Source: Spirochaetes bacterium GWE1_32_154
GTDB lineage: Bacteria > Spirochaetota > GWE2-31-10
Direction: 5' to 3'
Length of the DNA: 48,877 nt
Assembly: GCA_001829315.1 (NCBI GenBank)
Contig: MIAY01000042.1
Location: forward strand, 1 to 48,877
Shown here: in pieces, positions 12,550-43,037 of the stretch
Layout: each line of letters opens with the position of its first letter
How positions within the stretch are numbered: position 1 is the stretch's first letter
Position numbers and translations under genes: made by a program
The notes under the pieces: model-generated
Database searches by the model: none
Seen by the model: only the letters and a program-made list of their open reading frames with translations
Told to the model about the DNA's origin: nothing

Positions 12550-12724
12550 GTTGTACTCCTTACAGAATAATTATGTCATTGAAATATTTATAGCCTTGTA
12601 TACTATTTAACATAAGCTACTGAAAATGTATGTGAAGTAAGTCACAAAACTTTATTTTAATTATAAGAAGCATATAGTTAAGCCAGTTTTATACCGCAGA
12701 TTTTGTAGTAAATGTTTAAACTGA
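12519..12724 (-). repeat. Dispersed promoter repeat, copy 1 (with 5' end of RlmJ-like gene)
   Basis: Positions 12519-12670 appear base for base at 19339-19490, and 12559-12724 recur nearly identically at 36114-36278. The repeat holds a leader with a TAAGGAG ribosome site, -10-like words (TATACA, TTAAAT on the minus strand), a CRP-type palindrome at 12631 and an AT-rich upstream part. Here it drives the RlmJ-like gene and also includes that gene's first ten codons. Confidence 0.85.
12631..12646. promoter_or_regulatory. CRP-type box upstream of the RlmJ-like gene
   Basis: TGTGAAGTAAGTCACA is a perfect match to TGTGA-N6-TCACA. It lies about 82 bp before the ATG of 11677-12549 (minus strand). 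Candidate -10 words TTAAAT and TATACA lie 20 and 28 nt past the box, so the exact promoter geometry is less clear than at the other sites. Confidence 0.65.
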
Positions 12725-12780
12725 CCCAATAATCTATATCAATGAAACGTTGAAATCAGAAACATGCTCAAAAATATTTA

Positions 12781-13185
12781 TTATATTTTCTTTTTCATTT
12801 TTTGTATAATTAGTAAACTAAAAATACAAAATAATAATAAGTACATAATCGGAACAACAAATAGATCAACTGAAATAGTTTTAAATTTCACAATAAACGT
12901 CAAAGGAATTGTAAAAATGAGTAAAACATTAATTATTACATATTTTAAAAATAAAAAATTGTACTTTTCTATTTTGATCTTTTCATAAAGTGAAATCAAT
13001 AAAACAATTGGACTTATAATGAAACACAAAGTATTTATAACTCCGAATAATTTATCTAAAACATTATGTGAGGTTATAAAAACATAGAAATCAAATACGT
13101 GTGAATTTTTCAACAATATCATTAAGTTTAAATTTGTAATCAGAATCAAAGTTAATAGAATACCAACAATATTTTTCTTTTTCAT
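12781..13185 (-). CDS. Small four-TM membrane protein, unknown
   Basis: 134 residues with four hydrophobic segments (~5-25, 42-66, 80-104, 108-129), lysine-rich loops and a basic tail. The ATG is preceded by GTAGGAAGAAATTTTAA. No recognised domain. It lies between an attC-like site (13220-13260) and repeat copy 1, and is probably a cassette gene. Confidence 0.65.
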   Translation of the reverse strand: MKKKNIVGILLTLILITNLNLMILLKNSHVFDFYVFITSHNVLDKLFGVINTLCFIISPIVLLISLYEKIKIEKYNFLFLKYVIINVLLIFTIPLTFIVKFKTISVDLFVVPIMYLLLFCIFSLLIIQKMKKKI

Positions 13186-13219
13186 TTAAAATTTCTTCCT
13201 ACTTTTATTGTGAAAACAT

Positions 13220-13260
13220 GGCGTTTAACGTTTAAAGTTGCAGACCAGCAACTTTAAGGA
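13220..13260 (-). repeat. attC-like site with GTTAAACGCC core
   Basis: On the minus strand a perfect 10-bp stem TTAAAGTTGC/GCAACTTTAA with a 6-nt loop is followed by GTTAAACGCC, whose GTTAAAC fits the GTTRRRY core. It precedes the leader of 12781-13185. The rest of the gap to 13480 holds a second small dyad (CCAACT/AGTTGG near 13374-13391) and moderately GC-rich sequence but no open frame. Confidence 0.5.
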
Positions 13261-13480
13261 CTAATATTATTAAATTCTTTTTAATGATAATCAACAAATA
13301 TTTTAAGAAAATCAAAAATCATCGGTAATTTGGGTGCAGAGAGGGTAATCCCGAACACTGCCAACTTTGTGTTAGTTGGAGTTGACCGCAAAATAAATGA
13401 TAATTTACAGCCAAGGAAAGCCGATTAATAAAGATTTTTACAGCTTAAAAATTTCTAAATCTTTCACAAAGTAATAGTTA

Positions 13481-14725: not shown

Positions 14726-14993
14726 TTAGCGTGGATGAGATTCTTGCTTTTGATATCTTTTGTCCTTAACGCCTGTTTTGTTGGAAATGTGGGCGAGACC
14801 CCATTAAGATATCGTTTGTAAGCATTAAAATCCTTAGCGTGGGTGAAAATTCGTGTTTTCCAGATTTTATGTCCTTAGCACCGGTTTTGTCGGAAATGTG
14901 GGCGAGACCCCGTATAATTGTGTGGCGAAAAGCAAGTGAAAACAGAAATATTTTCCTTAGCGTGGTTTTTGTCGGAAATGAGCTCCAGACCCC
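14726..14993. repeat. Three degenerate tandem repeats, GC-richer than surroundings
   Basis: A unit starting TTAGCGTGG recurs at 14726, 14834 and 14957. Inside are ~41-bp blocks ending in GGGCGAGACCCC at 14762-14802 and 14871-14911, with a diverged third at 14954-14993. On the minus strand they read GGGGTCTCGCCCACATTTCC. The third abuts the broken end of the intron remnant. They may be decayed attC sites with lost cassettes, or another repeat family. Upstream, 14453-14725 is AT-rich with nothing recognisable. Confidence 0.6.
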
Positions 14994-15253
14994 TCAATGG
15001 ACAACTTTACGGCACCTCATCAGTGATTAACTTTCGTTCGTCTTCCAAAAACTCACCTGACAGATTCATGATCTGCCTTTTCCCACAACGTTAACCACCA
15101 AAGACTCTTAATCTCAGCAGCTTGGGGTAGTTTGAAACCAGTTCCTGAAAACAGATTTCGAGGAGCCATTCAGCTTACGCTGATTTCCTCATCAATTGTA
15201 AAGTTACGATTTAATCTCACTCGTGTCGAGTAAGATTAAATCTCGTGGCACAC
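14993..15253 (-). mobile_element. Group II intron remnant, 5' end only
   Basis: Positions 14993-15259 are identical to 17866-18132 except at one base (15012), so this is the first ~261 nt of the intron at 16238-18126. It starts with the same GTGTGCC 5' end (15253 downward) and has the same upstream exon end TTCAAC. The rest of the intron is missing. The 5' exon reads GGCTAACAACTGCTTCAAC, again an attC left half. Loss of the 3' rather than the 5' part is not what incomplete reverse transcription gives. Confidence 0.85.
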
Positions 15254-15305
15254 GTTGAAGCAGTTGTTAGCCGATTTCTATTAGCGATATTCCTTATTGA
15301 ACCTC

Positions 15306-16151: not shown

Positions 16152-16195
16152 TTAACATCTCCTAATTTACTATATCAGTTGCGACAAAGTCGTCC

Positions 16196-16237: not shown

Positions 16238-16277
16238 GTTGAGTAGACCGGGGGAATCACACCCCCAGTCTCTCACA

Positions 16278-16311
16278 GAACCGTACGTGACAGTCTCCCG
16301 TCATACGGCTC
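16278..16311 (-). ncRNA. Group II intron domain V
   Basis: The 34-nt minus-strand segment GAGCCGTATGACGGGAGACT... ends CACGTACGGTTC. It folds as the expected domain V: lower stem GAGCCGTATG/CACGTACGGTTC with a bulge, a GGGAGACT-type cap, and AGC in the catalytic triad position of the first strand. It is followed by the domain VI stem. Confidence 0.85.
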
Positions 16312-16327
16312 TTCATATTCAATCGTA

Positions 16328-17563
16328 CTAATTAAAGCCAAATTCCCAATGTACAAAAAGTGTTGGTCTGGTTTTAAGTAAAGCTCTCATAAAGTTATAA
16401 GCTCTTACCCAGCTATTACGTAACTTACGAAACTTGTTCTTAGCCCATTTGACTAAGTTCTTCTGAATCCTATCACAAACTCCTCCTAACGCTGACTTCC
16501 TGAATCTTCCATAGTAGTTTAACCACCCTCTAATAGAAGAATTGATTAACTCCGCCATACCATCAATATCCAAACCTGTACAGGACTGAATTTTTATTGC
16601 CCTGATTTTATCCTTAATCGAGACTTCTGCCTTTTTGCTAATCGCAGGTGAAAAACTTACAAAGTACTAATTCCTATTATTCTTTACTAATCTTGGTCGA
16701 AAAGTAAATCCTAAAAAATCAAACTTCTTCTCAGTATAATCTCCCTTTCGATTATCATCTTTGCAGTAAACAATCTTTGTCTTATCAGGATGAACCATGA
16801 GTTTACATTCTGCTAAACGTACTTTGATCTCTTCAAGAAGTTTTGTTGCTTCTTCAAGACTTCTACAGTGAACAACTAAATCATCAGCATACCTCGCAAA
16901 AGGGTTCTCAGGATGATTTTTCGTAATCCATTTGTCAAACGCATAATGAAGAAATAAATTTGCTAACAGGGGACTTATCACACCACCTTGTGGCGTTCCA
17001 ACTTCTCTGTGAATAAGATTTCCTTCAGAATCTATCGCAGGAGCCTTTAGCCATCTTTCAACATATAGACGAATCCAAGCAGGAGGACTATGAAAATCTA
17101 CAGCTTTCATCATCAATTCATGATCGATATTGTCAAAGAATCCCTTGATATCCAGATCAATTACCCAGTCATATTCCCAGCACCGCTTTCTCGTTACCTC
17201 AAGAGCCTGATGAGCTGACTTTTTAGGTCGATACCCATAGGAATTATGATGAAACAACGGTTCAAGGATAGGCTCGAAATATAACCTTGCAGTCATTTGT
17301 GCCACTCGATCCAATACTGTTGGTATTCCGAGTGGTCTTGTTCCTCCACCTTTCTTTGGGATATCTACCCGTTTAACCGCCATGGGAAAGTAACTACCGC
17401 TTGACATTCTATTCCAAAGTTTATACAGAGAATCTTTTTCATTCTCTGCCATTGCTTCGAGCGTTAATCCGTCAATGCCTGCAGAACCTCTATTCCGTTT
17501 AACAAGCTGATATGCATCCCAAATCATTTGCTTTGAGATTCTGTACGATTTTGCCTGTTCCAA
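16328..17563 (-). pseudogene. ltrA: Group II intron reverse transcriptase/maturase, interrupted by one in-frame TAG
   Basis: The frame starts at a TTG after GGGAGGAACTA and encodes 298 residues to a TAG at 16667-16669, then continues in the same frame (YFVSFSPAISKKAEV...) to 16328: 411 codons in all, one stop inside. RT motifs are intact: RPLGIPTVLDRVAQ, SYGYRPKKSAHQAL, DLDIKGFFDNIDH, GTPQGGVISPLL and YADD (~225-228). The part after the stop holds the maturase/thumb region IRGWLNYYGRF. Without readthrough the maturase domain is lost, so splicing would fail in cis. The stop could be real decay, suppression or a base error. Confidence 0.88.
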
Positions 17564-18126
17564 TAGTTCCTCCCATTTCTAGTTGACCACTGAAACAGAC
17601 ATGAATATGTCAGCCCCTTCGCTCCATTTCCATTACAGAAACTTCATCACTACTACGAGCTGATCCGCCCCTGTGCCGTGCATCAGTATTTCCAACTTAC
17701 GGGTTCTCCGCTTGAAGTTTTCCCTTAGCATCACGACGACAGGTTCCCACGTTCCTTACAATAGCCTATTTTTAGATCACGCCACTTCTATGCCGGAGAC
17801 CGCAAACACAGTAATCAGGTTTCCTGCTTGCTTGTCAGACTGTTTCAACGATCAGTCCTTTTGATCTCAATGGACAACTTTACGACACCTCATCAGTGAT
17901 TAACTTTCGTTCGTCTTCCAAAAACTCACCTGACAGATTCATGATCTGCCTTTTCCCACAACGTTAACCACCAAAGACTCTTAATCTCAGCAGCTTGGGG
18001 TAGTTTGAAACCAGTTCCTGAAAACAGATTTCGAGGAGCCATTCAGCTTACGCTGATTTCCTCATCAATTGTAAAGTTACGATTTAATCTCACTCGTGTC
18101 GAGTAAGATTAAATCTCGTGGCACAC

Positions 18127-18145
18127 GTTGAAACCTTTGTTAGAC
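18127..18145 (-). repeat. attC left half, upstream exon of the intron
   Basis: The minus strand reads GTCTAACAAAGGTTTCAAC followed directly by the intron's GTGTG. GTCTAAC fits RYYYAAC, and its TAA is the stop codon of the HAD-like gene (18140-18142), as in classical cassettes whose attC overlaps the stop. The second intron target has the near-identical GGCTAACAACTGCTTCAAC. Confidence 0.6.
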
Positions 18146-18697
18146 TAATTTTTCAAATATTTCTTCAAGTTTTTCAACGTTGTTTATACAATAGGTCGCA
18201 TCTATTATTATTCGATTTGAAATTAGTACAGTTTTAATATTTGATCTGATTCCAGCTTCAACGTCAATATCTCTATCTCCTATTCCTATTGTTTCTTCTC
18301 TTTTAAGGGAGTATTTATTTATCAAATATTCAAAAGAATCGGAAGATGGTTTTTCTTTAAAATTATTTTCCTTACAAATTATTTCAATAAACCTATTTTC
18401 CAATTTTTCTTTATTCAATTTTATTGTCAAAGAATTTCTATCTCGGTGAGTAACTAAAAAATGCTTTTTACCATCATTTTTCATGAGAATTCTTTTCACG
18501 GTCGGAAATGCAGTTTCTTCTTCACCATGTTCATCATAGAAAGTTCTTATTTCTTTTAATAGAGGTTCATACTCTAACCTATACTCATCTGATATAACTT
18601 TGACGCAATACTTTGTGTCAATATACACCAGGTTCTCAATTCGCTCTCTATTAATATCAAGCCTATATTTTTTGTTAAGATTAGAATCAAATAACAA
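18140..18697 (-). CDS. HAD-like hydrolase, N-terminus missing
   Basis: 185 residues from a TTG. Recognisable HAD features are HFLVTHRDRN (motif II Ser/Thr position), KEKPSSDSFEYLINKYSL (motif III Lys region) and IGIGDRDIDVEAGIRSNIKTVLIS (motif IV acidic pair). The N-terminal DxDGT motif with the nucleophilic Asp is absent. Just upstream, in another frame, is a GNAT fragment, so the 5' end has probably been replaced by recombination. Phosphatase activity is unlikely without the nucleophile. It may better be treated as a pseudogene. Confidence 0.6.
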   Translation of the reverse strand: MLFDSNLNKKYRLDINRERIENLVYIDTKYCVKVISDEYRLEYEPLLKEIRTFYDEHGEEETAFPTVKRILMKNDGKKHFLVTHRDRNSLTIKLNKEKLENRFIEIICKENNFKEKPSSDSFEYLINKYSLKREETIGIGDRDIDVEAGIRSNIKTVLISNRIIIDATYCINNVEKLEEIFEKLV

Positions 18698-18830: not shown

Positions 18831-19274
18831 CTATAATTTCTTTTTAAATCCTATATGTTTGGTGCTATTATAACCCAAAGATTCATAAAAAATAATTGAA
18901 TCTTGTCTATTTTTTTCAGTTATAAATTGTATTTGTTTACAACCTTTTTCTTTACCAATTTCCTCTAAGTTTCTTAATAATAATTTTCCAATTCCTTTCT
19001 TCCTATATTTAATATCAACAACTAAATCTTCCATAATTAAAAAAGGATCACATTCACCATACAATTCATAACAAATTATTCCCATTATTGAACCCACAAC
19101 TATATTATTTTCTAAAGCACATAGAATAATATAATTATTATTATCACAATATCTTCTATAAATATCGTGCATTTTATTAATATTCGATTCTTCATTCCAA
19201 AATGTATAATATAGTTTATTAAGAGACTCAAAATCACATTCTAACAATGGTCTTATCGTATAATTATTATTCAT
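18831..19274 (-). CDS. GNAT-family N-acetyltransferase
   Basis: 147 residues covering a complete GNAT fold: N-terminal IRPLLECDFESLNKLYYTFW, the motif A strand LIMEDLVVDIKYRKKGIGKLL with the pyrophosphate-binding RKKGIG (~residues 92-97), and motif B QDSIIFYESLGY. It transfers an acetyl group from acetyl-CoA to an unknown amine. The ribosome site is weak. An attC-like core (GTTCGAC) lies about 60 nt upstream, so it is a probable cassette gene. Confidence 0.8.
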   Translation of the reverse strand: MNNNYTIRPLLECDFESLNKLYYTFWNEESNINKMHDIYRRYCDNNNYIILCALENNIVVGSIMGIICYELYGECDPFLIMEDLVVDIKYRKKGIGKLLLRNLEEIGKEKGCKQIQFITEKNRQDSIIFYESLGYNSTKHIGFKKKL

Positions 19275-19320: not shown

Positions 19321-19339
19321 GCGATAGCGTCCGTCGAAC
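19321..19339 (-). repeat. attC core fused to a truncated gene copy
   Basis: The minus strand reads GTTCGACGGACGCTATCGC. The G before TTCGAC is the last base shared with the RlmJ-like gene copy (AATCGGCG). The join between promoter repeat copy 2 and the GNAT unit therefore falls at the G^TT position used by integron integrases. CGGACG after the core is shared with 10548-10567 and with the site at 16196. Confidence 0.45.
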
Positions 19340-19490
19340 GCCGATTCTTCCATAATGCTTATAACTCATGTTGTACTCCTTACAGAATAATTATGTCATT
19401 GAAATATTTATAGCCTTGTATACTATTTAACATAAGCTACTGAAAATGTATGTGAAGTAAGTCACAAAACTTTATTTTAATTATAAGAAG
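19339..19490 (-). repeat. Dispersed promoter repeat, copy 2
   Basis: An exact 152-bp copy of 12519-12670: CRP-type box, leader, ribosome site and the first ten codons of the RlmJ-like gene (MSYKHYGRIG), after which the sequence switches to an attC-like core. It could now serve as the promoter for the GNAT gene 18831-19274, with a short truncated leader frame. An inverted repeat (19487-19537) begins at its upstream edge. Confidence 0.85.
19451..19466. promoter_or_regulatory. CRP-type box in repeat copy 2
   Basis: TGTGAAGTAAGTCACA, a perfect TGTGA-N6-TCACA match, identical to the boxes at 12631 and 36186. It would place the GNAT unit downstream under the same control if the repeat is still an active promoter. 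Confidence 0.6.
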
Positions 19491-19718: not shown

Positions 19719-20711
19719 TTATTCATCTTTCAAATATTTTCTGACTGCTTCGATTGTCTCTTTTGGCTTATCAATAAACATGTAGTGTCCGCTATCTTTT
19801 ATTGTAACCATTTCACCATTTTTAAATAACTTAATATGTTTTTCTTGAGTTTTTAAGCCTATAACCTTGTTTGAGTCGCTTGTAATAAAGAGCACCTTAT
19901 TGTTGAATTTATCTAATCCCGTAGTCAGATCAAAAACAATTTTACCATCTTTAAACACAGACTGAGGAATTCTCTCTGAAGCAGCCCCGCCAAATCTCCA
20001 ATGTATTTTTACTTCATGAGGTATTTTTCTGTCTTTGTAGTAGTCAAGATAAGGGTTGTCATCTCCTTTATAACCATAAATCCATTCGTAAGAAAAATAG
20101 TCTTTTTGTGCATCTGTATCTCCATAAAATATAGATACCATCTTTGTTCTAATCATATGAAAGAAAGTCCCAAAACTCATTCGCTGGCTTTTCTTTATAA
20201 ACTCTTCAAGCATAACAGCGTTTAATGCACCGGGTTCCATAAGCACAGCTTTTTCCACTTTTTCGGGATATTTTGAAATATATCCCGTTGCTAGCATTGC
20301 CCCCCATGAATGACCTATTAAAATAGCTTTTTTATACTTAGAATAATAATCAATTATACCATTCAGCTCTGACAATGATGATTCCAGTGAATACTCATTT
20401 TCTTTTACCCTCTCTGATAACCCGCAACCCATCTGATCAAAAAACACGACCCTATATTCATCTGCCAATTCTTTGAAAACAAGAGCATTCCTGTAATCTA
20501 ATCCAGGGCCTCCGTGGAGAAAAATGACAACCTGTTTTTCAGGGCTACCGAAAACCTCTGAATGAAGTTTATGTCCGTTTATTGTGATGTTAGGTATCTC
20601 GGATGATTTTGTCACAGTCTCTTTTAAAATATACCCTGATGAACATCCTCCAAATGCTATTAATACCATTATCAGGTACAATATTTTTTTGAAATTAGTG
20701 TCACTATTCAT
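19719..20711 (-). CDS. Alpha/beta-hydrolase lipoprotein (proline iminopeptidase-like)
   Basis: About 330 residues from the ATG at 20711 (AAAGGGGATTGTTA upstream). A signal peptide with lipobox AFGGCSS leads to an alpha/beta hydrolase with HGGPGLDYR (oxyanion region), nucleophile elbow GHSWG (~residue 135), a late Asp in ITSDSNK and the catalytic His in DSGHYMF. HGGPG plus GHSWG is the signature of prolyl aminopeptidase-type hydrolases; the substrate is unknown. It should be anchored in the envelope. A CRP-type promoter lies upstream, with SUMF-like gene debris between promoter and start. Confidence 0.85.
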   Translation of the reverse strand: MNSDTNFKKILYLIMVLIAFGGCSSGYILKETVTKSSEIPNITINGHKLHSEVFGSPEKQVVIFLHGGPGLDYRNALVFKELADEYRVVFFDQMGCGLSERVKENEYSLESSLSELNGIIDYYSKYKKAILIGHSWGAMLATGYISKYPEKVEKAVLMEPGALNAVMLEEFIKKSQRMSFGTFFHMIRTKMVSIFYGDTDAQKDYFSYEWIYGYKGDDNPYLDYYKDRKIPHEVKIHWRFGGAASERIPQSVFKDGKIVFDLTTGLDKFNNKVLFITSDSNKVIGLKTQEKHIKLFKNGEMVTIKDSGHYMFIDKPKETIEAVRKYLKDE

Positions 20712-20796
20712 TAACAATCCCCTTTCTGATTTTACATTTTTTTTCTTTTTTCTTTTTCATACTGATGAAATCCATACTTTAAAATATATTAGATTT

Positions 20797-20880
20797 TGAT
20801 TTTTCCTGATTCCCGGAAGGTCAGTGAATAGTTCGTAACAGTTCCAGCATCTTTCCATCCGTTTGTTTTGGTAATTTTTT
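20797..20880 (-). pseudogene. Remnant of a formylglycine-enzyme-like gene
   Basis: The minus strand over ~20804-20865 matches two pieces of the gene at 32982-33812: the part encoding WERCWDWYELFTDLP (about 43 bp with 2-3 differences) joined directly to the part encoding PGIRKNQN. The intervening ~105 bp are missing, and the join lies at a CTTCC present at both ends in the intact gene, which points to a short-repeat deletion. The same promoter precedes both loci. The remainder of 20718-21182 is AT-rich, with a TTGCGAT/ATCGCAA stem at 21122-21152. Confidence 0.75.
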
Positions 20881-20922
20881 TTCATCTTGAATACTATTAT
20901 ATAATTTTTATTAGAATAATTC

Positions 20923-20938
20923 TGTTAACAATTTCACA
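20923..20938. promoter_or_regulatory. CRP-type box with TATAAT at -41.5 spacing (hydrolase gene)
   Basis: On the minus strand TGTGAAATTGTTAACA (one mismatch to TGTGA-N6-TCACA) is followed after exactly 21 nt by TATAAT, giving a centre at about -41.5. The same ~45-bp promoter occurs, inverted, at 31440-31482. It reads through the SUMF-like remnant into the alpha/beta hydrolase gene. Confidence 0.65.
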
Positions 20939-21182
20939 ATCTTGTAGGTTATTAATCATAAATCACAACAATATATTATAACTCCTTTTTTAATTCATTG
21001 ATAAATGGGGTTTCGCTCACATATCCGAAATATTTTGTAAAACCTGTGTATTCATAAATCGGGAACAATCATTTTATAAATCATAAATCCGGTTCTATGT
21101 GGCTAAATTCTACACGAATCGTTGCGATTTTACCTTGTGGGTAAGATCGCAAAAAAAATCGAGTAGGTTTTGGCTGTTACCA

Positions 21183-23877: not shown

Positions 23878-24654
23878 TTATAATTTCTTAACTCTCTGTG
23901 CAAGCTCAATAATTGCATTTTTAATACCATCATTAACATTATATTTTGATTCAACATATTCTAATATAGCAAGTGCAGACTCTGGAACTTTATCATACCC
24001 CTGCATCATCCCTGGTATTTTAGATGCGAAGTGAGGAAATCTGATCTCAAATCGTCTTTCATTTTGAAAATCATCTTTAAAATATGAGACTTCCTGTTCA
24101 AAATAAGAAGCACACGCAACAAGTATATCAAGTGCAAATGTCTGTACAAATTTAGTAGAAATCAATTTTTCACCACGCCCGAATCTGCATAATCCAACAT
24201 ATAAACAAGTTAGTACTTCGCCCATTGCCCAATCAAGATTATCAGGTTTCCATGGTGTATTTTTTTTAACCGGAGTACAAAGTGATTCATCAAAATCTTT
24301 GGTTTTCCAAATTATTCGACCTGAAGAAAATTGGGTATTTGACAATTCATGTTCTTCAAATACAGCAAATTCACAATATATTCCGTCTTCATATAGATAT
24401 TTATACCCATCCGGGCTATTTAAAAAATAAAAAGCTGGTGTCCCACAGTTGGTAAGCCAATCAAGATTATCTATATATCGTTTTTTCATACCATCTTTTA
24501 CTATAACAAAAAAATCAAGATCACTCCATTCATCTAATCTTTCAAGTTCCATTCCAATAGAACCCAATCCCAATAATGCTTTAGCATCTCCTGTTTTTTG
24601 TAATGAATCAGCAATTTCAGTTAATCTTTTCAAAATCAATGCTTTTGTATTCAT
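23878..24654 (-). CDS. Nucleotidyltransferase-fold protein (aminoglycoside-adenylyltransferase-like)
   Basis: 258 residues. The Pol-beta-type motif GSIGMELERLDEWSDLDFFVIV (~residues 31-52; Gly-Ser then Asp-x-Asp) is the NTP/metal site of minimal nucleotidyltransferases, and a helical C-terminal part follows as in DUF4111/AadA-like enzymes. It may modify a small molecule such as an aminoglycoside, but no resistance role can be claimed. The start is fixed by AAGGAGATACAT. It is divergent from the amylase operon and has its own CRP-type box (24702). Confidence 0.72.
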   Translation of the reverse strand: MNTKALILKRLTEIADSLQKTGDAKALLGLGSIGMELERLDEWSDLDFFVIVKDGMKKRYIDNLDWLTNCGTPAFYFLNSPDGYKYLYEDGIYCEFAVFEEHELSNTQFSSGRIIWKTKDFDESLCTPVKKNTPWKPDNLDWAMGEVLTCLYVGLCRFGRGEKLISTKFVQTFALDILVACASYFEQEVSYFKDDFQNERRFEIRFPHFASKIPGMMQGYDKVPESALAILEYVESKYNVNDGIKNAIIELAQRVKKL

Positions 24655-24673: not shown

Positions 24674-24717
24674 ATAATACCAAATTAGTAATTTAATAAT
24701 CTGTGATGTTCTTCACA
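24674..24717 (-). promoter_or_regulatory. CRP-type promoter of the nucleotidyltransferase gene
   Basis: The box at 24702-24717 (TGTGATGTTCTTCACA) is a perfect TGTGA-N6-TCACA. Read on the minus strand, a TATTAT hexamer (24674-24679) follows after 22 nt, placing the box at about -42.5. It is one of two divergent boxes, centres 72 bp apart. Confidence 0.7.
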
Positions 24718-24773: not shown

Positions 24774-24816
24774 TGTGAAATGATTCACAGAATTATTATT
24801 ATTTAAGTACTATTAT
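24774..24816 (+). promoter_or_regulatory. CRP-type promoter of the amylase operon
   Basis: Box 24774-24789 (TGTGAAATGATTCACA, perfect match) is followed after exactly 21 nt by TATTAT (24811-24816). The box centre is at -41.5, the class II CRP position. Transcription would begin near 24823, 44 nt before the amylase ATG. Confidence 0.75.
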
Positions 24817-24866: not shown

Positions 24867-26741
24867 ATGGATATTTTTTTTTCAAAAACTGAGTCGGAAT
24901 ATCTTCAGAATAAAAGTGATAACATTTTTAAGTATGAATCAAATAATCGTGCTTATTGTAGTCCGGCTTCGGACGGGACTATTTTACTACGAGTTATTGC
25001 TGGAAAAAATATAAAAGAAATTATATTGATTTATAATGACGGTAAACCTTTTATCGATAAAATGTCAATTTACCTATCAGACAATCAAGTCAATTACTGG
25101 CAAACTATAATTCTTCCCGATAGAAAATTAATTCGCTATTTCTTTGCGGTTAGTTTTTCAGATATGAAATCATTATATTTTTGTAAAAGAGGGTTTTCTG
25201 ATAATATTACAGCACTTGAACGATGGGAGATCACAGAAACGGAATATTTTGATATAAAAGTGCCATCATGGGCTGGTGGAAGTGTCATCTATCAAATTTT
25301 TCCAGAACGCTTTGCTCCAGAAAGATTAGATTCTCCAGATCTATGGAGAAGAAAACCCGAATGGCTTACATTTCAGGGCGGTACATTAAATGGTATTACA
25401 AAAAATATCGGCTATCTCAAAGACCTTGGTGTTGATATGATTTACCTTACACCAATAAATACATCCCCTTCAACACATAAATATGATGCAACTGATTTTA
25501 GAAATACAGATCCAGGCTTCGGTGGTAACAATGCATTTAGAAATCTTGTTGATTCAGCCCACAATGAAGGAATAAAAGTTATACTTGATATGTCATTAAA
25601 TCATTCTCATCCTTTGTTCTTTGCATTTCAGGATGTTGTTAAAAATGGTAATAATTCAAAATATAAAGAATGGTTTTTCTTTGATGACTTCCCTGTTTCT
25701 ATAACATGCAGGCCGGAAAAAATGAAAGCTGAAAAACCTAAATCATTTGAACTTTACTTTAACTACATAAAAGAACTTTGTGAGATTTCAGGAATTGTAT
25801 TAAAAATTGAAAATGGTGATGGAATCTCTGTAGAGCCATCATACAAAGCTTGGCATAATGTTCCAAATGTTCCAAAATTGAATACAAATAATCCAGAAAC
25901 ACGAAAATATCTTATCGATTCGGCTGTCCACTGGTTAAAAGAATATGGAATAGATGGACTTCGAATGGATGTTGTGCGTCATATCGAACAGGATTTTTGG
26001 AAAGACTTTCGAATTGCCTTAAAAAATTATAATCCTGAATGTTATCTTCTTGGTGAAATATGGGACGACGCTACACCATGGTTACAAGGGGATCAATTTG
26101 ATGCCAGTATGAATTATATTTTTAGAGATTTATGCTTAGATTTTTTCGCTACAAAAAAATCTTCGATTGACGATTTTATAGCTGGAATTAATAGAATGTA
26201 CAGTCTTTATCATCCTTCAATAATTAATCAGATACAGAATTTACTTTCATCACATGATGTTGAACGATTTTTATTCATTGCAGACGGTGATAGAAAGAAA
26301 CTTAAAACAGCAATAATGTTTCAATTAACTATGCCCGGATCTCCCGGTATTTATTATGGTGATGAAATCGGTATGAATGGAGGAAATGACCCAAGTAATA
26401 GAGCAACATTTCCATGGTATGATACAAATTTATGGGATAATGAAATTCTAGAAATGACAAAATCTATAAATAAACTTCGTCACAAATATAGTTCTCTCAA
26501 AACAGGGTGGTGGAAATATATTACTGGAAGTAATGACCATCTTGTTTATGAAAGATTTAATAACTCAGAAAAGATTCTAATCATTATTGCAATAGAAAAC
26601 CCGATAGAAAAACTTATAATAACCGGGGATCATTCTCAACCATCTATTATTTATGGGGATTGTAAAATTACAAATGATAAAAATAAAATTATTATTTTTA
26701 ATATAAAATCATATTCAGTCGTACTTATAAAATATCAATAG
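24867..26741 (+). CDS. GH13 glycosidase, cyclomaltodextrinase/neopullulanase type
   Basis: 624 residues. An N-terminal beta domain (~1-125, CBM34/N-domain-like) precedes the catalytic barrel. GH13 regions are clear: VILDMSLNHSH (I), GIDGLRMDVVRH (II, nucleophile Asp), LLGEIWDD (III, acid Glu) and LLSSHDVER (IV, transition-state Asp). GGTLNGITKNIGYLKDLGVD and THKYDATDF are typical of cyclomaltodextrinases and neopullulanases, which hydrolyse cyclodextrins, pullulan and maltodextrins. No signal peptide, so it works in the cytoplasm. It heads an operon under a CRP-type promoter and would act with MalQ (40768). Confidence 0.88.
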   Translation: MDIFFSKTESEYLQNKSDNIFKYESNNRAYCSPASDGTILLRVIAGKNIKEIILIYNDGKPFIDKMSIYLSDNQVNYWQTIILPDRKLIRYFFAVSFSDMKSLYFCKRGFSDNITALERWEITETEYFDIKVPSWAGGSVIYQIFPERFAPERLDSPDLWRRKPEWLTFQGGTLNGITKNIGYLKDLGVDMIYLTPINTSPSTHKYDATDFRNTDPGFGGNNAFRNLVDSAHNEGIKVILDMSLNHSHPLFFAFQDVVKNGNNSKYKEWFFFDDFPVSITCRPEKMKAEKPKSFELYFNYIKELCEISGIVLKIENGDGISVEPSYKAWHNVPNVPKLNTNNPETRKYLIDSAVHWLKEYGIDGLRMDVVRHIEQDFWKDFRIALKNYNPECYLLGEIWDDATPWLQGDQFDASMNYIFRDLCLDFFATKKSSIDDFIAGINRMYSLYHPSIINQIQNLLSSHDVERFLFIADGDRKKLKTAIMFQLTMPGSPGIYYGDEIGMNGGNDPSNRATFPWYDTNLWDNEILEMTKSINKLRHKYSSLKTGWWKYITGSNDHLVYERFNNSEKILIIIAIENPIEKLIITGDHSQPSIIYGDCKITNDKNKIIIFNIKSYSVVLIKYQ

Positions 26742-26751
26742 GGAGTATTTT

Positions 26752-27909: not shown

Positions 27910-27982
27910 TTATAGATAATTAATACATTTAAAACGGAAAAAATAAAAACATAACTATTAGATATGAAAAAGGGGGTAATTA

Positions 27983-29308: not shown

Positions 29309-29321
29309 GAGGATATTTGAA

Positions 29322-29434
29322 TGAAAATTGTTTTTAAAGATGTATATTGATTCTTCCACTCATGATTATAAAATTATGAATATGGCTGATAGAATAATAA
29401 GATTGTATGATGGAATGGTTATAGGAGGTTGGTA
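29322..29434 (+). pseudogene. LolD/MacB-type ABC ATPase with large internal deletion
   Basis: An ATG after AGGAGGATATTTGA encodes MKIVFKDVY, the usual start of such ATPases, and then stops. In a shifted frame the next 33 codons read STHDYKIMNMADRIIRLYDG and end GMVIGGW, which is the H-loop and C-terminus of an ABC ATPase ('VTHD----ADRII-L-DG'). Walker A, signature and Walker B are all gone. The intact permease gene follows at 29438. Confidence 0.8.
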
Positions 29435-29437
29435 ACG

Positions 29438-30679: not shown

Positions 30680-30712
30680 TAAGATACCATTAATATAATT
30701 TGGAGAAATTAA

Positions 30713-31408: not shown

Positions 31409-31439
31409 TATCTTGTTATGATTAAAATCATAATAAGAT

Positions 31440-31482
31440 TGTGAAATTGTTAACAGAATTATTCTAATAATAACTATATAAT
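31440..31482 (+). promoter_or_regulatory. CRP-type promoter of the double methyltransferase gene
   Basis: Box 31440-31455 (TGTGAAATTGTTAACA, one mismatch) and a consensus TATAAT (31477-31482) are spaced by exactly 21 nt, box centre -41.5. The predicted start near 31489 makes the ATG at 31494 an unlikely start codon and supports 31527. Nearly the same promoter lies inverted at 20895-20940. Confidence 0.68.
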
Positions 31483-31526
31483 AAGTAATCAGAATGAATA
31501 AAATACTACCGAAATGGAGGCAAAAG

Positions 31527-32930
31527 ATGAAAGATTTTTGGAATAATCGATTTGTAAATGAACAAAAGGTTTGGGGAGAAGAATGGAGTAAAACAGCCGA
31601 GTTATGTCTTAATTACTTCCAAGCATATAAAATAAAATCAATTCTCATCCCCGGTTCAGGGTACGGTAGAAATGCCAATTATTTTATACAAAATGGGTTA
31701 GAAGTGGAAGGGATTGAAATATCAGATGAGGCTATTACAATAGGGAAAAAAAATGGAATATCGTACCATGTTTATCCGGGAAGTGTTTTAGAGATGCCTT
31801 ACAATTCCAAAATATACGATGGTATCTATTGTTTTAATGTCCTTCATTTATTCAAAGAGAATGATAGAAATGATTTCATTCAAAAATGTTATAAGCAGTT
31901 ACGCAATAATGGAATTGTATTTTTTGTGGTGTTCTCCGAGAATGAAATGACATTCGGAAGTGGTACAAAATCAGAAGAAAATACATTTGAAAGTAAACCG
32001 GGAAGACCTGTTCATTATTTCACTAATGATGATATTCGGGAACATTTTAATAAATTCTCAATAATCGATAGTGGACTCATTAAAGACTATGAAAATCATG
32101 GCGAGGAAGGGTCTCATACCCATATTCTACGATATATTATTGCTCAGAAAAAAGAATCTCATGAATTTGATGGTAAAAAATACAGAAAGGCTTCTTTACA
32201 TCAGAAGGAATGGGGTACGAAGATAATTTCAGAATTTAAATTACATGGAAATGAATCTATACTGGATTTAGGATGTGGTGATGGGACGTTAACATCACTA
32301 TTATCAGAACTTGTCCCGAAGGGAAAAGTTATTGGAATTGATGCATCTGATGGCATGATAAGCACTGCTAAGGAAATTGAAACAAAAAAACTTGTGTTTA
32401 AAAAAATGGATATTGATGAAATTAATTTCGACGAAGAATTTGATCTTATATTTTCAAATGCAACTCTTCATTGGGTAAAAGATCATAAAAAACTCTTAGC
32501 AAATTGTTTTAAAGCACTTAAAAAAAACGGATCTATCCGATTCAATTTTGCCGGAGAAGGTAATGGTTCAAATTTCAATAATGTTATAAAAGAGACAATC
32601 TCTCATGAAAAATTTAAAAAATATTTCGTACATCTTGAATGGCCATGGTTTATGCCGTCAATTTCAGAATACAAAACACTCGTTACAGATTGTGATTTTA
32701 AAAATATTGAAATATGGGATGAAAACGCAGACAGATATTTCGCAAATGAAAATGAATTGATACAATGGATCGAGCAACCTGCAATAGTACCATTTTTAAA
32801 ATTAGTTGCGAATGAAGATAAAGATTTTTTTCGAAGTGACGTTATTAACAAAATGATTGAAAGAACAAGACAATCTGACGGTAGGTGTTTTGAAACTTTT
32901 AGAAGAATAAATGTTAAAGCTACAAAATGA
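31527..32930 (+). CDS. Fusion of two SAM-dependent methyltransferase domains
   Basis: About 467 residues from ATG 31527 (GGAGGCAAAAG upstream). Domain 1 (~1-205): MKDFWNNRF, cofactor loop ILIPGSGYGRNANYF, FNVLHLF and a TehB/thiopurine-methyltransferase-like layout. Domain 2 (~215-467): SILDLGCGDGTLTSLL, VIGIDASDGMI, FDLIFSNATLHWV and a C-terminal RINVKATK, close to the trans-aconitate methyltransferase (Tam) pattern. Each domain has its own motif I, so both could be active. The linker RKASLHQKEWG suggests a true fusion of two genes. Substrates unknown. CRP-type promoter upstream. Confidence 0.85.
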   Translation: MKDFWNNRFVNEQKVWGEEWSKTAELCLNYFQAYKIKSILIPGSGYGRNANYFIQNGLEVEGIEISDEAITIGKKNGISYHVYPGSVLEMPYNSKIYDGIYCFNVLHLFKENDRNDFIQKCYKQLRNNGIVFFVVFSENEMTFGSGTKSEENTFESKPGRPVHYFTNDDIREHFNKFSIIDSGLIKDYENHGEEGSHTHILRYIIAQKKESHEFDGKKYRKASLHQKEWGTKIISEFKLHGNESILDLGCGDGTLTSLLSELVPKGKVIGIDASDGMISTAKEIETKKLVFKKMDIDEINFDEEFDLIFSNATLHWVKDHKKLLANCFKALKKNGSIRFNFAGEGNGSNFNNVIKETISHEKFKKYFVHLEWPWFMPSISEYKTLVTDCDFKNIEIWDENADRYFANENELIQWIEQPAIVPFLKLVANEDKDFFRSDVINKMIERTRQSDGRCFETFRRINVKATK

Positions 32931-32981
32931 ACAGCTTTAATAGTTCGGTAATTGTAATAATCAATATTAAGGAGCCAACAA

Positions 32982-33812
32982 ATGATTAAATATTCTTTTA
33001 TCTATTTTTTATTATGCTTTATAACAATTTTCATATACCCGATTGAACCATCAAAAACGGATCAATTTGTTTTTGTTGAAGGTGGAACATTCCAAATGGG
33101 CGATGAATCTTCAAAAATTCATACTGTAACACTTGATTCTTTCTATATTTCTAAATACGAATTAACTCAAAAAGAATGGACTAATGTTATGGAATATAAC
33201 CGGTCTGTTTTTAAAGGTGACGAAAACCCTGTTGATAATATATCATTTTATGAAGCAATAGAGTTTTGTAATAAAAAGAGCTTAATTGATGGTTTAGAAG
33301 AAGTTTATACTATTGACAAAGAAAATAAAGATCAAAAAAACAGGCATACTAGTGATGACTTAAAATGGTCAATAATTTGTAACTGGAATGCGAACGGATA
33401 TAGACTTCCAACCGAAGCTGAATGGGAATTTGCAGCAAAAGGCGGAAATAAAACTAAAGACTATAAATTCAGTGGAAGTAATACCATAAATAATGTTGCA
33501 TGGTATATTGAAAATTCTGATAAACAGACTAAACCTGTTGGTAAAAAGAAACCTAATGAGCTTGGTTTATATGATATGTCAGGAAATGTCTGGGAAAGAT
33601 GCTGGGACTGGTACGAACTATTCACTGACCTTCCTGCAATAAACCCCAGAGGTGCTGATGGCGGATATTCAAAGGTTTATAAAGGTGGCGGTGCCGGATA
33701 CCAGAAAGATTTCAATACACCAACCGGGCGAGGAGAACTTCCGGGAATCAGGAAAAATCAAAATATGGGTATGAGATTAGCAAAATCAACTTCTGAAATC
33801 ATTATTAAATAA
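32982..33812 (+). CDS. Secreted formylglycine-enzyme-like (SUMF1) protein lacking the active cysteines
   Basis: 276 residues: a signal peptide, then the SUMF1/FGE-sulfatase fold with FVEGGTFQMGDE, FYISKYELTQKEW, YRLPTEAEWEFAAKGG, GLYDMSGNVWERCWDWY and a C-terminal GMRLAKS. FGE converts Cys to formylglycine using a cysteine pair near the C-terminus; that region here (VYKGGGAGYQKDF...) has no Cys, so it is likely a non-catalytic relative, often binding sugars or anchoring at the surface. A broken copy lies at 20797-20880. It follows the methyltransferase gene by 51 nt (GGAGCCAACAA before ATG). Confidence 0.85.
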   Translation: MIKYSFIYFLLCFITIFIYPIEPSKTDQFVFVEGGTFQMGDESSKIHTVTLDSFYISKYELTQKEWTNVMEYNRSVFKGDENPVDNISFYEAIEFCNKKSLIDGLEEVYTIDKENKDQKNRHTSDDLKWSIICNWNANGYRLPTEAEWEFAAKGGNKTKDYKFSGSNTINNVAWYIENSDKQTKPVGKKKPNELGLYDMSGNVWERCWDWYELFTDLPAINPRGADGGYSKVYKGGGAGYQKDFNTPTGRGELPGIRKNQNMGMRLAKSTSEIIIK

Positions 33813-35220: not shown

Positions 35221-36102
35221 TCAATTTTTTAATTGATTATTATGTAAATTCTTATTATCTTCAGGAACAAGCATCCAAGCAATTAATGCTCCGAATATCA
35301 ACATCTCACTAAAAACTTCTACAAAATGACCAAAGCGAACAACCGGTGGCATTAAACCATTTGGGAACATTAATTGAAAAGATGTAAATACCCCCATTAC
35401 TATGGCAGCCAATACAATCTTTTTTTCTTTTGATCCTTTTAGTATAAAAAATAATGGAAAAATACATATTAACCAAAGAAGACTTCGTACAATCTGTATA
35501 AAAAGAAGTTTTAAACCGCCTCCAGCATCAGTTGAGCTAATCCAAGCAGCATAATATTCCTTAGTAGCCTGAAAACTCATCGGGAAAAGACCGAAAGAAA
35601 AATACAAAATAACATATGCAACAATTATTGCAGGTATCCATAGATACCACTTTGATTTTAATACTAATGCAGCCTTTAATTCTTCGTTATTTCTTTTCCA
35701 TTTTCCATACATCAATATTGGTATACGCAAATAAAGGGCAAAAATAAATAATTGACTCATTATTATTTTTATAACACCAAAAGTATCAAGATCAGGAAAC
35801 GCTTTAATAAAAACCATTGTCTCAACCTGAGTCATAAAAGTCTGAATTCCCCACGTTAAAACAAGCATAGCTCCATACAATTGCACCCCATTCACATTTG
35901 ATGATGTTATGAGGTAATTCACAAGAAACGAAATAGAAAGGGTCACCACGACTAACGCAAGCATCATATATTTTGCATCTTCTACACCAATTTTAGCAGT
36001 TACTTCAGGTGACATTGGAAATAAAATACCACCAATCGAAAATATAACTACAAAAACAATCCAAGATAATACCCATTTTCCAATCCATTTTGTTCTTTCC
36101 AT
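35221..36102 (-). CDS. Polytopic membrane protein, unknown
   Basis: 293 residues with about eight hydrophobic helices, several with Trp/Met-rich faces (LVLTWGIQTFMTQVETMVFIKAFP). It looks like an uncharacterised eight-TM protein. Its start region carries repeat copy 3 with a CRP-type box 84 bp upstream of the ATG, so it appears to have acquired the dispersed promoter. It is followed after 35 nt by the lipoprotein gene. Confidence 0.7.
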   Translation of the reverse strand: MERTKWIGKWVLSWIVFVVIFSIGGILFPMSPEVTAKIGVEDAKYMMLALVVVTLSISFLVNYLITSSNVNGVQLYGAMLVLTWGIQTFMTQVETMVFIKAFPDLDTFGVIKIIMSQLFIFALYLRIPILMYGKWKRNNEELKAALVLKSKWYLWIPAIIVAYVILYFSFGLFPMSFQATKEYYAAWISSTDAGGGLKLLFIQIVRSLLWLICIFPLFFILKGSKEKKIVLAAIVMGVFTSFQLMFPNGLMPPVVRFGHFVEVFSEMLIFGALIAWMLVPEDNKNLHNNQLKN

Positions 36103-36113: not shown

Positions 36114-36278
36114 CTTACAGAATAATTATGTCATTGAAATATTTATAGCCTTGTATACTATTTAACATAAGCTACTGAAAATGTATGTGAAGTAAGTCAC
36201 AAAACTTTATTTTAATTATAAGAAGCATATAGTTAAGCCAGTTTTATACCGTAGATTTTCCGTAAATGTTTAAATTAA
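36114..36278 (-). repeat. Dispersed promoter repeat, copy 3
   Basis: 165 bp nearly identical to 12559-12724, including the CRP-type box and the AT-rich upstream part, but without the RlmJ-like coding start. The identity ends right at the leader of 35221-36102, so the promoter has been fused to a different gene. A few differences lie near the far end (CCGCAG/CCGTAG; a small gap). Confidence 0.85.
36186..36201. promoter_or_regulatory. CRP-type box in repeat copy 3
   Basis: TGTGAAGTAAGTCACA, perfect TGTGA-N6-TCACA, identical to 12631 and 19451. Serves the membrane-protein gene 35221-36102. The -10 candidates (TTAAAT, TATACA) are weaker than at the other boxes. Confidence 0.65.
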
Positions 36279-36311: not shown

Positions 36312-37220
36312 TTATATGCCCAAAGTATTCCCATAGAACTTAGTATATTCACTTTTTACTAATTCTATTGAGAGATCCGGATGACATAGTTCTTTGCTTG
36401 TTATACAAAGTCCGGCTACAATTGTAGCAATTTTCATCGATATTTCTATGCTATAACCGTTGCTATACGAGTATAGTAACGCAGAAAAAAAACTATCCCC
36501 AGCTCCATTAGCGTCAATAAGTTTATATTCGTCAATAATTGGAGTATCAATAAATATTCCATTAGGTGTAAGTGCGGTTGCTCCATTCGCACCGTGTGTA
36601 CATACAACAAGTTTTTTCCCCATCTCTATAAATTTATTCATTACTAATTTGTAATCTTTAAGATGAGTTGAACTCATTGTTATATAATCTGCTCCGATAG
36701 CAAAATCATCAAAATAATTATTTTCTGGTTCATAATCACCGAGATCACACCATATTTCTTTATTATGTTTTTTAATTACGGGTATGAGATGTCGACAGTA
36801 GTTGTAAATATTTAACGCAATGAAGTCATTATTAATTATAAGCTTTTCAAATTTTTCATAATTAATCTTAGGTTCAAATGAACGGGAATTTGTAGTGATT
36901 GATATTCTACTTCCGTGTTTATCCATAAGATTTATATGAGTTTCTGTTCCTGCAGGATCAAAATCGTAATCTAAAATAATATTTTCTTTATCAAAAAATT
37001 CAATTATTTTTCTACCATAATCATCATCTCCGATATATGCTTGAAGAGTTGTTTCAAATCCGAGTTTTTTAAGATTAAGAGATTTTCCAGTACCCATTTG
37101 TCCGAATGTTGTATATGAACTATTACTCCAGAGGTGTTGTGTTTTTGGTTCTGGAAGTTCATTTAAATGTACAACTGTGCAATAGCAAGTGCCACCAATA
37201 ACAAGAACATTGTTTTTCAT
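36312..37220 (-). CDS. PfkB/ribokinase-family carbohydrate kinase
   Basis: 302 residues. The PfkB fold is shown by NVLVIGGTCYCTVVHLNELP at the start, TTFGQMGTGKSLNLKKLGF in place of the Gly-Gly sugar-binding loop, YIGDDDYGRKI, and the C-terminal signature DANGAGDSFFSALLYSYSNG with the catalytic Asp of GAGD. It phosphorylates a sugar or nucleoside with ATP; the exact substrate is not evident. CAGGAGAAATAT precedes the ATG. A CRP-type promoter lies upstream, fitting a role in carbon use. Confidence 0.85.
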   Translation of the reverse strand: MKNNVLVIGGTCYCTVVHLNELPEPKTQHLWSNSSYTTFGQMGTGKSLNLKKLGFETTLQAYIGDDDYGRKIIEFFDKENIILDYDFDPAGTETHINLMDKHGSRISITTNSRSFEPKINYEKFEKLIINNDFIALNIYNYCRHLIPVIKKHNKEIWCDLGDYEPENNYFDDFAIGADYITMSSTHLKDYKLVMNKFIEMGKKLVVCTHGANGATALTPNGIFIDTPIIDEYKLIDANGAGDSFFSALLYSYSNGYSIEISMKIATIVAGLCITSKELCHPDLSIELVKSEYTKFYGNTLGI

Positions 37221-37281: not shown

Positions 37282-37324
37282 ATTCTATACTATTAAAAAT
37301 GATATTTCTGTGAAGAAGATCACA
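37282..37324 (-). promoter_or_regulatory. CRP-type promoter of the carbohydrate kinase gene
   Basis: Box 37309-37324 (TGTGAAGAAGATCACA, perfect) is followed on the minus strand after exactly 21 nt by TAGAAT (37287-37282), a 5/6 match to TATAAT. Box centre at -41.5; the start would be near 37275, 55 nt before the ATG. Confidence 0.72.
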
Positions 37325-38434: not shown

Positions 38435-38450
38435 GGCACGTTTCATTAAT

Positions 38451-39826: not shown

Positions 39827-39835
39827 GATTTTTGG

Positions 39836-39867: not shown

Positions 39868-39900
39868 TAATCTTTTTTAAAAGCAAGTGTTTTACAATAA

Positions 39901-40764: not shown

Positions 40765-40767
40765 ACC

Positions 40768-42246
40768 CTACCCCTCTTTATTATTCGAACCCGATATAAT
40801 TGAAAAACCCTTTTGATTACTTTCTAACTGATCTTTTGTAACACGCCATGACCAATTATGATCCCCTGAACTGCCCGGTGTATTTATTCTTGTATGAGCA
40901 TCAAGTTCAAAAATATCCTGTAGCGGAATTATTACCATTGATGCATTCGAATCCATTAATCTTTTAATAGCCGCTTTATGAAGTTTATCATAGTGATTAA
41001 TACCAAGATATTGAAACACATTCTCTTGTTCAGAATCACTTAATGAATGAAACCATCCTGATATAACATGATTATCGTGGGTTCCGGTATATGCAGCAGA
41101 ATATTCATCATAATTATCAACATTATAATCTGACTGTGCTATAGTTTCAAGACTTGTAAAATCAATAAATTGAAAAATCTTCATTCCTTTTAATTTAAAA
41201 TCTTTTTTTAATTTTTTTACTTCCGGTGTTATAAAACCAAGATCTTCAAGTAAGAATAAATCTTCTATTTCATCACCATACACCTCTTTTAAAGCATTAA
41301 AAAATAAATGCCCAGGACCTTGTTCCCATGTTCCATTATGAGCAGTCACTTCACCATAAGGAATACTAAAATACGACTCAATACCTCTAAAATGATCAAT
41401 TTTAATGCAATCAACTAGTTCTTTAAGATGGGCAATTCGTTCTTTCCACCATTTAAACCCGTTTTTTTCTTGTTCATCCCAATTATATAGAGGATTTCCC
41501 CAAACCTGACCATCCACTGTGAAGGTATCAGGCGGAACTCCGGCAACTTGTTTTGGATAATCATTCTCATCAAGTAAAAAGATTTCTTTATTTCCATACA
41601 CATCACTTGAATCATACGAAACATAAAGAGGAATATCTCCGATTAGTTTAACATTTTTTGCATTTGCATACGAACGAAATGCAGTCCATTGTGAAAACGT
41701 CTCAAATTGAAGAAATTTATGATATTCTATTAAATCAGTATCCGGCAACTCCTTCGATCTATCCCACTCAATCCACGCCTTGCTGCCATTAAGCTCTTTT
41801 AAAGCCATAAATTGTGCATAACCGTCAAGCCAATGTTTTTGATTGTTGCAAAATATTTTAAACTCTTTTTTATACCGGTCATTTTCATCAATTTTTTTAA
41901 ATCTCTCATACGCCATGCGTAAATACGTATAGCGGTGAATATAAAGAAAACCATAATCAATAACCGACTGACTACATTCAGGATATTCTGATAGTTCATC
42001 CTTTGATACTAATCCTTTTTCACAACATATATCAAGACTGATAAAATAGGGATTTAACGCAAAAGTAGAAAGTGCATCATAGGGAGAATTCGCATAGCCG
42101 GTCGGTCCGCTGCCAAGTATTTGCAAATAATCAATACCATTATTACTTAACATATCAATCAATGCAAATGCCCCGCCCCCTAGATCTCCAGAGCCATAAT
42201 TTCCGGGTAATGATAAAATATGTGCTAAAATTCCTGTCTTTTTCAT
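40768..42246 (-). CDS. malQ: 4-alpha-glucanotransferase (amylomaltase)
   Basis: About 492 residues from ATG 42246 (AAAGGAGGATTTTAGT upstream); the frame extends upstream into crp. GH77 features are GSGPTGYANSPYDALSTFALNP, DIPLYVSYDSSDV, the VAGVPPD-F--DGQ-WGNP-Y-W loop, IKIDHFRG (nucleophile Asp), LLEDLG (acid/base Glu) and GTHDN. It transfers glucan chains between maltodextrins in the cytoplasm. It follows crp by 16 nt, and both are likely one transcript with the CRP box at 43022. It complements the CRP-controlled amylase at 24867. Confidence 0.95.
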   Translation of the reverse strand: MKKTGILAHILSLPGNYGSGDLGGGAFALIDMLSNNGIDYLQILGSGPTGYANSPYDALSTFALNPYFISLDICCEKGLVSKDELSEYPECSQSVIDYGFLYIHRYTYLRMAYERFKKIDENDRYKKEFKIFCNNQKHWLDGYAQFMALKELNGSKAWIEWDRSKELPDTDLIEYHKFLQFETFSQWTAFRSYANAKNVKLIGDIPLYVSYDSSDVYGNKEIFLLDENDYPKQVAGVPPDTFTVDGQVWGNPLYNWDEQEKNGFKWWKERIAHLKELVDCIKIDHFRGIESYFSIPYGEVTAHNGTWEQGPGHLFFNALKEVYGDEIEDLFLLEDLGFITPEVKKLKKDFKLKGMKIFQFIDFTSLETIAQSDYNVDNYDEYSAAYTGTHDNHVISGWFHSLSDSEQENVFQYLGINHYDKLHKAAIKRLMDSNASMVIIPLQDIFELDAHTRINTPGSSGDHNWSWRVTKDQLESNQKGFSIISGSNNKEG

Positions 42247-42262
42247 ACTAAAATCCTCCTTT

Positions 42263-42970
42263 TTATTCATCTGTTCCATATAAACCGACAAGACCGCCTA
42301 TTATAGATAATTTCTGTTCAAATAAATCCTTATCAGCAAAATAATGATCTTTTGATATCGATGTCAGAATACCGCTTTCTTTCAAATGATGTATTGTTTT
42401 AGTTACCGTTTCTCGTGACAATGAAAGAAAATCGGCTATTTCTTCATGTGTATGCTTGCGGGGTATCATATAAATACCTGATTGTATCAAACCATGTTTT
42501 ATACTCATCCATTTTAAATAATTAAGTATTTTTGTTTCAGCACTTTCTATTACTATTGATTTTTGAAAATCACCTATCTGTAATCCGAGATTTTTTAAAA
42601 GATCAAAAATAAAAACTGAATCATTTTTTAAATGATTAAAAAAATAATCTTTCGGTATTGATATTATTTCACAGGGGCATACACAAACCGCATTGACCGT
42701 ATGAACTTCTCCAAAAAGTTCAGGAATCCCCAAAAAGTTTCCTGATGTTAAAAATGAGAATATTTTCTTAAATTCTTTATCTGTATATTTAGATATTTCT
42801 ACTTTCCCATTACCAATGATATAAAAATACTCTAGTTTTTCGTCTTCAGAATATATAAAATTATTTTTCTGGTATGTTTTTAAAATTCCATTTTGAATAA
42901 TTTGACTTATTATATCTACATTATTAATACTCAATGTATTTTTCATAATTATTTTATCAACGAGTTCCAT
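42263..42970 (-). CDS. crp: CRP/FNR-family transcription regulator
   Basis: 235 residues from ATG 42970 (GGGAGAAAACGT upstream). An N-terminal cyclic-nucleotide-type beta domain (~20-125; NGKVEISKYTD, GNFLGIPELFGE) and a C-terminal winged helix with HEEIADFLSLSRETVTKTIHHL, whose SRETV--- recognition helix matches that of CRP, which reads TGTGA. The canonical cAMP-binding RTA pattern of CRP is not obvious. An unusual CVCPC cluster sits near residue 95. The gene carries a perfect CRP-type box in its own promoter, so it is probably autoregulated. Confidence 0.88.
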   Translation of the reverse strand: MELVDKIIMKNTLSINNVDIISQIIQNGILKTYQKNNFIYSEDEKLEYFYIIGNGKVEISKYTDKEFKKIFSFLTSGNFLGIPELFGEVHTVNAVCVCPCEIISIPKDYFFNHLKNDSVFIFDLLKNLGLQIGDFQKSIVIESAETKILNYLKWMSIKHGLIQSGIYMIPRKHTHEEIADFLSLSRETVTKTIHHLKESGILTSISKDHYFADKDLFEQKLSIIGGLVGLYGTDE

Positions 42971-42992
42971 ACGTTTTCTCCCGCTTGCTATA

Positions 42993-43037
42993 ATTATATA
43001 CAATATTGAATATTTTTTGTTTGTGAAATATTTCACA
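42993..43037 (-). promoter_or_regulatory. CRP-type box and promoter of the crp-malQ transcript
   Basis: Box 43022-43037 (TGTGAAATATTTCACA, perfect) is followed on the minus strand by TATATA after 21 nt or the consensus TATAAT after 23 nt (42993-42998). Both give a box at -41.5 to -43.5. The start would be close to 42986, leaving a 16-nt leader before ATG 42970, and it rules out the longer reading frame to 43036. Confidence 0.7.

Follow-up and report, generated by a model that had tools for sequence, protein, structure and literature searches.

The CRP protein of Escherichia coli contacts cAMP through Glu72, Arg82, Ser83, Thr127 and Ser128 (PMC11253593) and, in the promoter geometry defined as class II, is positioned 29 bp upstream of the -10 element (PMC9387333). 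A CRP/FNR fold and a helix that reads DNA as in CRP, but no functional cAMP site of the classical type, are found in cAMP-independent members of the family such as DdrI of Deinococcus radiodurans (PMC11253593) and CrpPg of Porphyromonas gingivalis (PMC12040651). The sequence TGTGA-N6-TCACA is also bound by Rex of Staphylococcus aureus, in the fuller form TTGTGAA-W4-TTCACAA (PMC2883068), and the motif is therefore not specific to CRP. Little literature was found on CRP in spirochaetes.

We analyzed a stretch of 48,877 nucleotides (the window), which represents one whole contig (C42) of the 4.03 Mb draft genome of Spirochaetes bacterium GWE1_32_154 and encodes a CRP/FNR-family regulator together with a set of TGTGA-N6-TCACA boxes (Table 1). 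Our preferred interpretation, to which we assign a probability of roughly 0.7, is that of a class II CRP-type regulon under a CRP/FNR activator, distributed across the genome, its sites in the window having increased in number when entire promoter segments were duplicated. The activator, either the product of 42263-42970 or one of its close paralogues, would bind the box in dimeric form, the centre of the box lying 29 bp before the -10 element (about -41.5), and recruit RNA polymerase to promoters without a full -35 element. Predicted targets comprise crp-malQ, the amylase cluster, PfkB-type kinases, a sugar-epimerase-like gene, a MATE transporter and several accessory genes. These features are best read as a carbohydrate regulon of an ordinary kind whose regulator has a divergent effector pocket. 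It would give a spirochaete lineage a CRP-type regulon with predicted targets and precise promoter geometry.

Table 1. Boxes, promoters and associated genes in the window.
Feature	Position	Strand	Context
Box copy A (TGTGACTTACTTCACA)	12604..12646	-	Upstream of ORF 11677-12549; identical to copies B and C
Box copy B	19424..19466	-	Upstream of GNAT ORF 18831-19274; 152 nt identical to copy A
Box copy C	36159..36201	-	Upstream of membrane-protein ORF 35221-36102; ~120 nt near-identical to copy A
Box TGTGAAATTGTTAACA + 21 nt + TATAAT	20896..20938	-	Upstream of alpha/beta-hydrolase ORF 19719-20717
Box TGTGAAGAACATCACA + 22 nt + TATTAT	24674..24717	-	Predicted promoter of nucleotidyltransferase-like ORF 23878-24654
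Box TGTGAAATGATTCACA + 21 nt + TATTAT	24774..24816	+	Predicted promoter of amylase gene cluster
Alpha-amylase family gene (PF00128)	24867..26741	+	Heads cluster 24867-31408
Box TGTGAAATTGTTAACA + 21 nt + TATAAT	31440..31482	+	Predicted promoter of double-methyltransferase gene 31494-32930
Box TGTGATCTTCTTCACA + 21 nt + TAGAAT	37282..37324	-	Predicted promoter of PfkB-family sugar kinase 36312-37220
Box TGTGAAATATTTCACA, TATATA at 21 nt, TATAAT at 23 nt	42993..43037	-	Predicted crp-malQ promoter
CRP/FNR-family regulator (crp), 235 aa, recognition helix SRETVTK	42263..42970	-	
malQ, 4-alpha-glucanotransferase	40768..42246	-	Directly downstream of crp

Seven perfect boxes are present in the window, at 12631, 19451, 24702, 24774, 36186, 37309 and 43022, compared with a chance expectation of 0.02, and none of 100 shuffled sequences reached this number. 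Together with one-mismatch boxes at 20923 and 31440, they reproduce the nine sites located by the first-pass annotation, which had placed nearly all of them in promoters; in a window that is approximately 83% coding, all nine lie upstream of genes. Allowing up to one mismatch, the window contains 11 boxes against 1.27 expected, and the two matches that the annotation had not listed (16462 and 35908, the latter inside a gene) look like background. At the genome level, 18 perfect boxes were found (three for the reversed control pattern), and the scan proposed with the annotation, which asked whether the motif is as common in genes as in promoters, placed 16 of these 18 between genes and the remaining two within transposase genes. 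The TGTGA boxes are thus genuine and far above chance. As 11 of the perfect boxes are spread over the genome outside the window, the regulon is genome-wide and not, as had been supposed, local. The window, which makes up 1.2% of the genome, holds five of the approximately 14 independent intergenic perfect sites (binomial 5e-7), an after-the-fact statistic because the window was picked for its richness in boxes; E. coli CRP, in contrast to these ~14 sites, has hundreds of targets. One-mismatch boxes were rejected as regulon evidence on their own, being mostly noise (107 against 66 for the control; on contig C1, 5 of 20 lie between genes).

The nine boxes had been counted as separate sites, a count that did not survive comparison of their flanks. 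Those at 12631, 19451 and 36186 are copies of a single promoter segment that is absent from the rest of the genome, with stretches of 117-152 nt identical or near-identical, and those at 20923 and 31440 are likewise copies, with 20793-21008 constituting a deletion derivative of 31376-33764. These duplicates reduce the nine boxes to six independent promoters. Copy C retains approximately 80% identity to copy A in its upstream flank, and copy B includes the first codons of the gene that follows copy A. The copied portion in copy B (19330-19490) stops abruptly at ATCGGCG in these first codons and is joined to the GNAT gene, which gives the impression that this gene acquired a promoter together with a leader. 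Integron attC sites were considered as a source of the repeated promoters and rejected, as a core-site search of the window gave none, with about five expected from shuffles. The genome does encode an integron integrase at C2:45444-46364 (TIGR02249, 398.7 bits, cut-off 265); a second copy, on C15, is broken, and a simple core-site search near the C2 integrase gave no attC array.

Since two families of duplicated promoters account for five of the nine boxes, the cluster could be a by-product of duplication in which the boxes carry no regulatory meaning. Six independent promoters in the window and about nine intergenic sites elsewhere argue against this, as does the manner in which the promoters have diverged. 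Three genes of the window and their paralogues on other contigs form pairs that act as footprints: the spacers have diverged, whereas the box is conserved and the -10 element remains at 21-22 nt (at 21/23 nt in the crp copy of the window). In the crp-malQ pair, the copy on contig C17 has a box identical at 16 of 16 positions and a spacer matching at 12 of 21, with TATTAT at 21 nt where the window copy has TATATA and TATAAT at 21 and 23 nt. The nucleotidyltransferase-like pair (C3 copy, 88% identical) retains 14 of 16 box positions and 6 of 21 spacer positions, and the double-methyltransferase pair (C5 copy, 79% identical) retains 13 of 16 and 8 of 21; both of these copies have TATATT at 21 nt. 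The crp gene of the C17 pair (C17:87635-88338) is approximately 80% identical to that of the window and is split by a frameshift, with box and -10 intact, and is either a true pseudogene or the result of faulty assembly.

A second genome, G006, belongs to the same order and is the only other one with this CRP subfamily among nine in its class. All four of its perfect boxes are intergenic, preceding genes for an amylase, a MATE transporter, a DUF4956 protein and rex, and the first three of these promoters have hexamers at 21 nt. The G006 amylase is 35% identical to that of the window, and its MATE transporter is 53% identical to one on contig C18 of the host that is itself preceded by a box. 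In the other sampled relatives, boxes lie mostly within genes. This recurrence of boxes before related genes, in addition to the conserved pairs, makes a mere duplication by-product extremely improbable and favors a CRP-type regulon whose sites were multiplied in the window.

The spacing between box and -10 element provides further insight into the type of regulation. The first-pass annotation had given spacings of 21 nt at four boxes, 22 nt at 24702 and 21-23 nt at 43022, all of which were confirmed: TATAAT, TATTAT or TAGAAT lies exactly 21 nt past the boxes at 20923, 24774, 31440 and 37309. Its statement that most boxes are at class II spacing holds for five of the six independent promoters, in which the box centre is 29-31 bp from a TATAAT-like hexamer, and does not hold for the three-copy promoter, which lacks a -10 element at 21-23 nt and has TAAATA as its sole hexamer at 21 nt. 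Genome-wide the distance peaks at exactly 29 bp from the box centre. Among the 17 independent sites (34 oriented flanks, read in both directions), nine carry a TATAAT-like hexamer exactly 21 nt away; a count of nine at any of 55 gaps was reached in one of 5,000 shuffles and never in 5,000 Markov resamples (P <= 2e-4 with every gap taken into account). The combined pattern box-N21-TANNNT, with at most one mismatch, is found 24 times in the genome (eight exact) against seven for the control, and the longer TGTGA-N6-TNACAGA-N19-TANNNT has nine exact matches, all in promoters. Class I geometry (-61.5) was rejected, as the hexamers do not peak at gap 41; for the crp paralogue on C18, gap 40 is the only one with TATAAT.

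These promoters resemble the class II promoters of E. coli in the distance of 29 bp from the box centre to the -10 element, in TGTGA half-sites separated by six nucleotides and in the absence of a full -35 element. They differ in that GA directly follows the box in most of the 21-nt sites and would fall at -33/-32, and in a regulator without the cAMP contacts. The -35 hexamer TTGACA has GA at these same positions, and the box may therefore extend over the remains of a -35 element. On the basis of these promoters, the amylase cluster, the sugar kinase and an autoregulated crp-malQ, all proposed earlier as members of the regulon, are supported as predicted targets.

The presence of Rex in the host (229.6 bits, cut-off 138) requires that a different regulator be considered, in which the boxes are operators of this redox repressor and the downstream genes are repressed until NADH rises. 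Rex regulons share the same inverted repeat (PMC2883068), and a perfect box precedes rex itself in three genomes (the host, G006 and G004). Box C11:146812 precedes an operon for a NuoE/NuoF-like NADH oxidoreductase, and the crp boxes of contig C17 (TTTGTGAAATATTTCACAAA) and of the window are a close fit to the Rex consensus. Rex represses NADH-linked genes, whereas most boxes here precede carbohydrate and accessory genes at the constant spacing of an activator, a -10 placement that a repressor does not need and that is absent at 21 nt from the box of the host rex and from that of the redox operon. In addition, the window targets are not NADH-linked, and many sites have the half-site TGTGAT or TGTGAC in place of TGTGAA. 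We consequently regard Rex as an improbable explanation for the boxes as a whole, and the CRP-type regulon is preferred for the carbohydrate and accessory promoters.

The boxes before rex and before the NuoE/NuoF-like operon are nevertheless probably Rex sites, and the most economical arrangement would have Rex operators there and CRP-type operators at the 21-nt sites, with possible overlap, for example at the crp promoter. This extends our preferred interpretation to two regulators using one operator, with a CRP-like activator at the 21-nt sites, Rex elsewhere and cross-talk between them. Such an arrangement is consistent with the division of the sites both by gene type and by the presence of a -10 element at 21 nt, with both proteins being encoded and with the recognition of TGTGA half-sites by both families. 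The division rests on few sites, however, and the rex boxes of G004 and G006 have weak hexamers at 20-21 nt, so we hold this extension tentatively. Where Rex is present, TGTGA-N6-TCACA is not assignable to CRP by sequence alone, and promoter spacing may serve to separate the two.

The product of 42263-42970 is a member of the CRP/FNR superfamily, with domains PF00027 (60.1 bits), PF13545 (34.3 bits) and PF00325 (26.6 bits). Its AlphaFold model (pLDDT 81.4) gave GlxR and MtbCRP as the best structural matches (E 2e-15), at a TM of about 0.5 and with uncertain domain orientation. Within the SRETVTK helix, Arg186 and Glu187 correspond to Arg180 and Glu181 of E. coli CRP and are invariant in seven aligned paralogues and orthologues, while the position of Arg185 is occupied by Lys, a conservative change. 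The cAMP contacts Glu72, Arg82, Ser83, Thr127 and Ser128, in contrast, align to Ile, Val/Thr, Asn, Gly and Asp, respectively (E. coli reference sequence checked against 1g6n). This loss, and a score of 33.9 bits for the NCBIfam CRP equivalog NF008732, far below its cut-off of 266, separate the protein from CRP proper. The earlier description of a CRP-family protein with an SRETV helix and its own box is accurate, but the cAMP receptor that it implied is not supported, in view of these two results. Judged from its residues, the regulator should work in a CRP-like manner on DNA, yet it should not be considered a CRP orthologue, and classically bound cAMP is probably not its effector. In this combination of CRP/FNR fold, CRP-like DNA-reading helix and no working classical cAMP site it is similar to DdrI and CrpPg; unlike DdrI, which keeps equivalents of Glu72 and Arg82, it has lost both.

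Five homologues in this subfamily share a C-terminal tail of the form G-x-Y-G. At least four CRP-like paralogues with compatible recognition helices are encoded in the genome, of which those on C18 and C12 have their own box upstream, and any of these paralogues might be the acting protein. The genome also encodes 29 class III nucleotide cyclase domains above the Pfam cut-off, from which cyclic nucleotides are likely made in the host. A more speculative reading, which we consider unlikely in its entirety, is that the subfamily marked by lost cAMP contacts and the G-x-Y-G tail switched effector but retained an operator of the E. coli type together with class II spacing, and controls starch and maltodextrin use amid these class III cyclases, with Rex using the same operator and carbon and redox signals thereby converging on one set of boxes. 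If it is true that the effector changed while the operator stayed, this would represent a useful case of CRP/FNR divergence.

Other features were observed in the window and genome. FlaA (PF04620), with four matches in this genome and no match among 14 control genomes, indicates that the host is most likely a spirochaete. A 93-nt direct repeat, 80% identical, is located at 43486-43578 and 45561-45653, at the starts of two minus-strand ORFs, and suggests a gene duplication. Three 51-nt repeats occupy the non-coding region 14752-14993 and end in GTGGGCGAGACCCC or similar. The window also contains a group II intron with a reverse transcriptase (TIGR04416, 371 bits) at 14993-15277 and 16238-18150, including a second copy of its 5' end of 285 nt.
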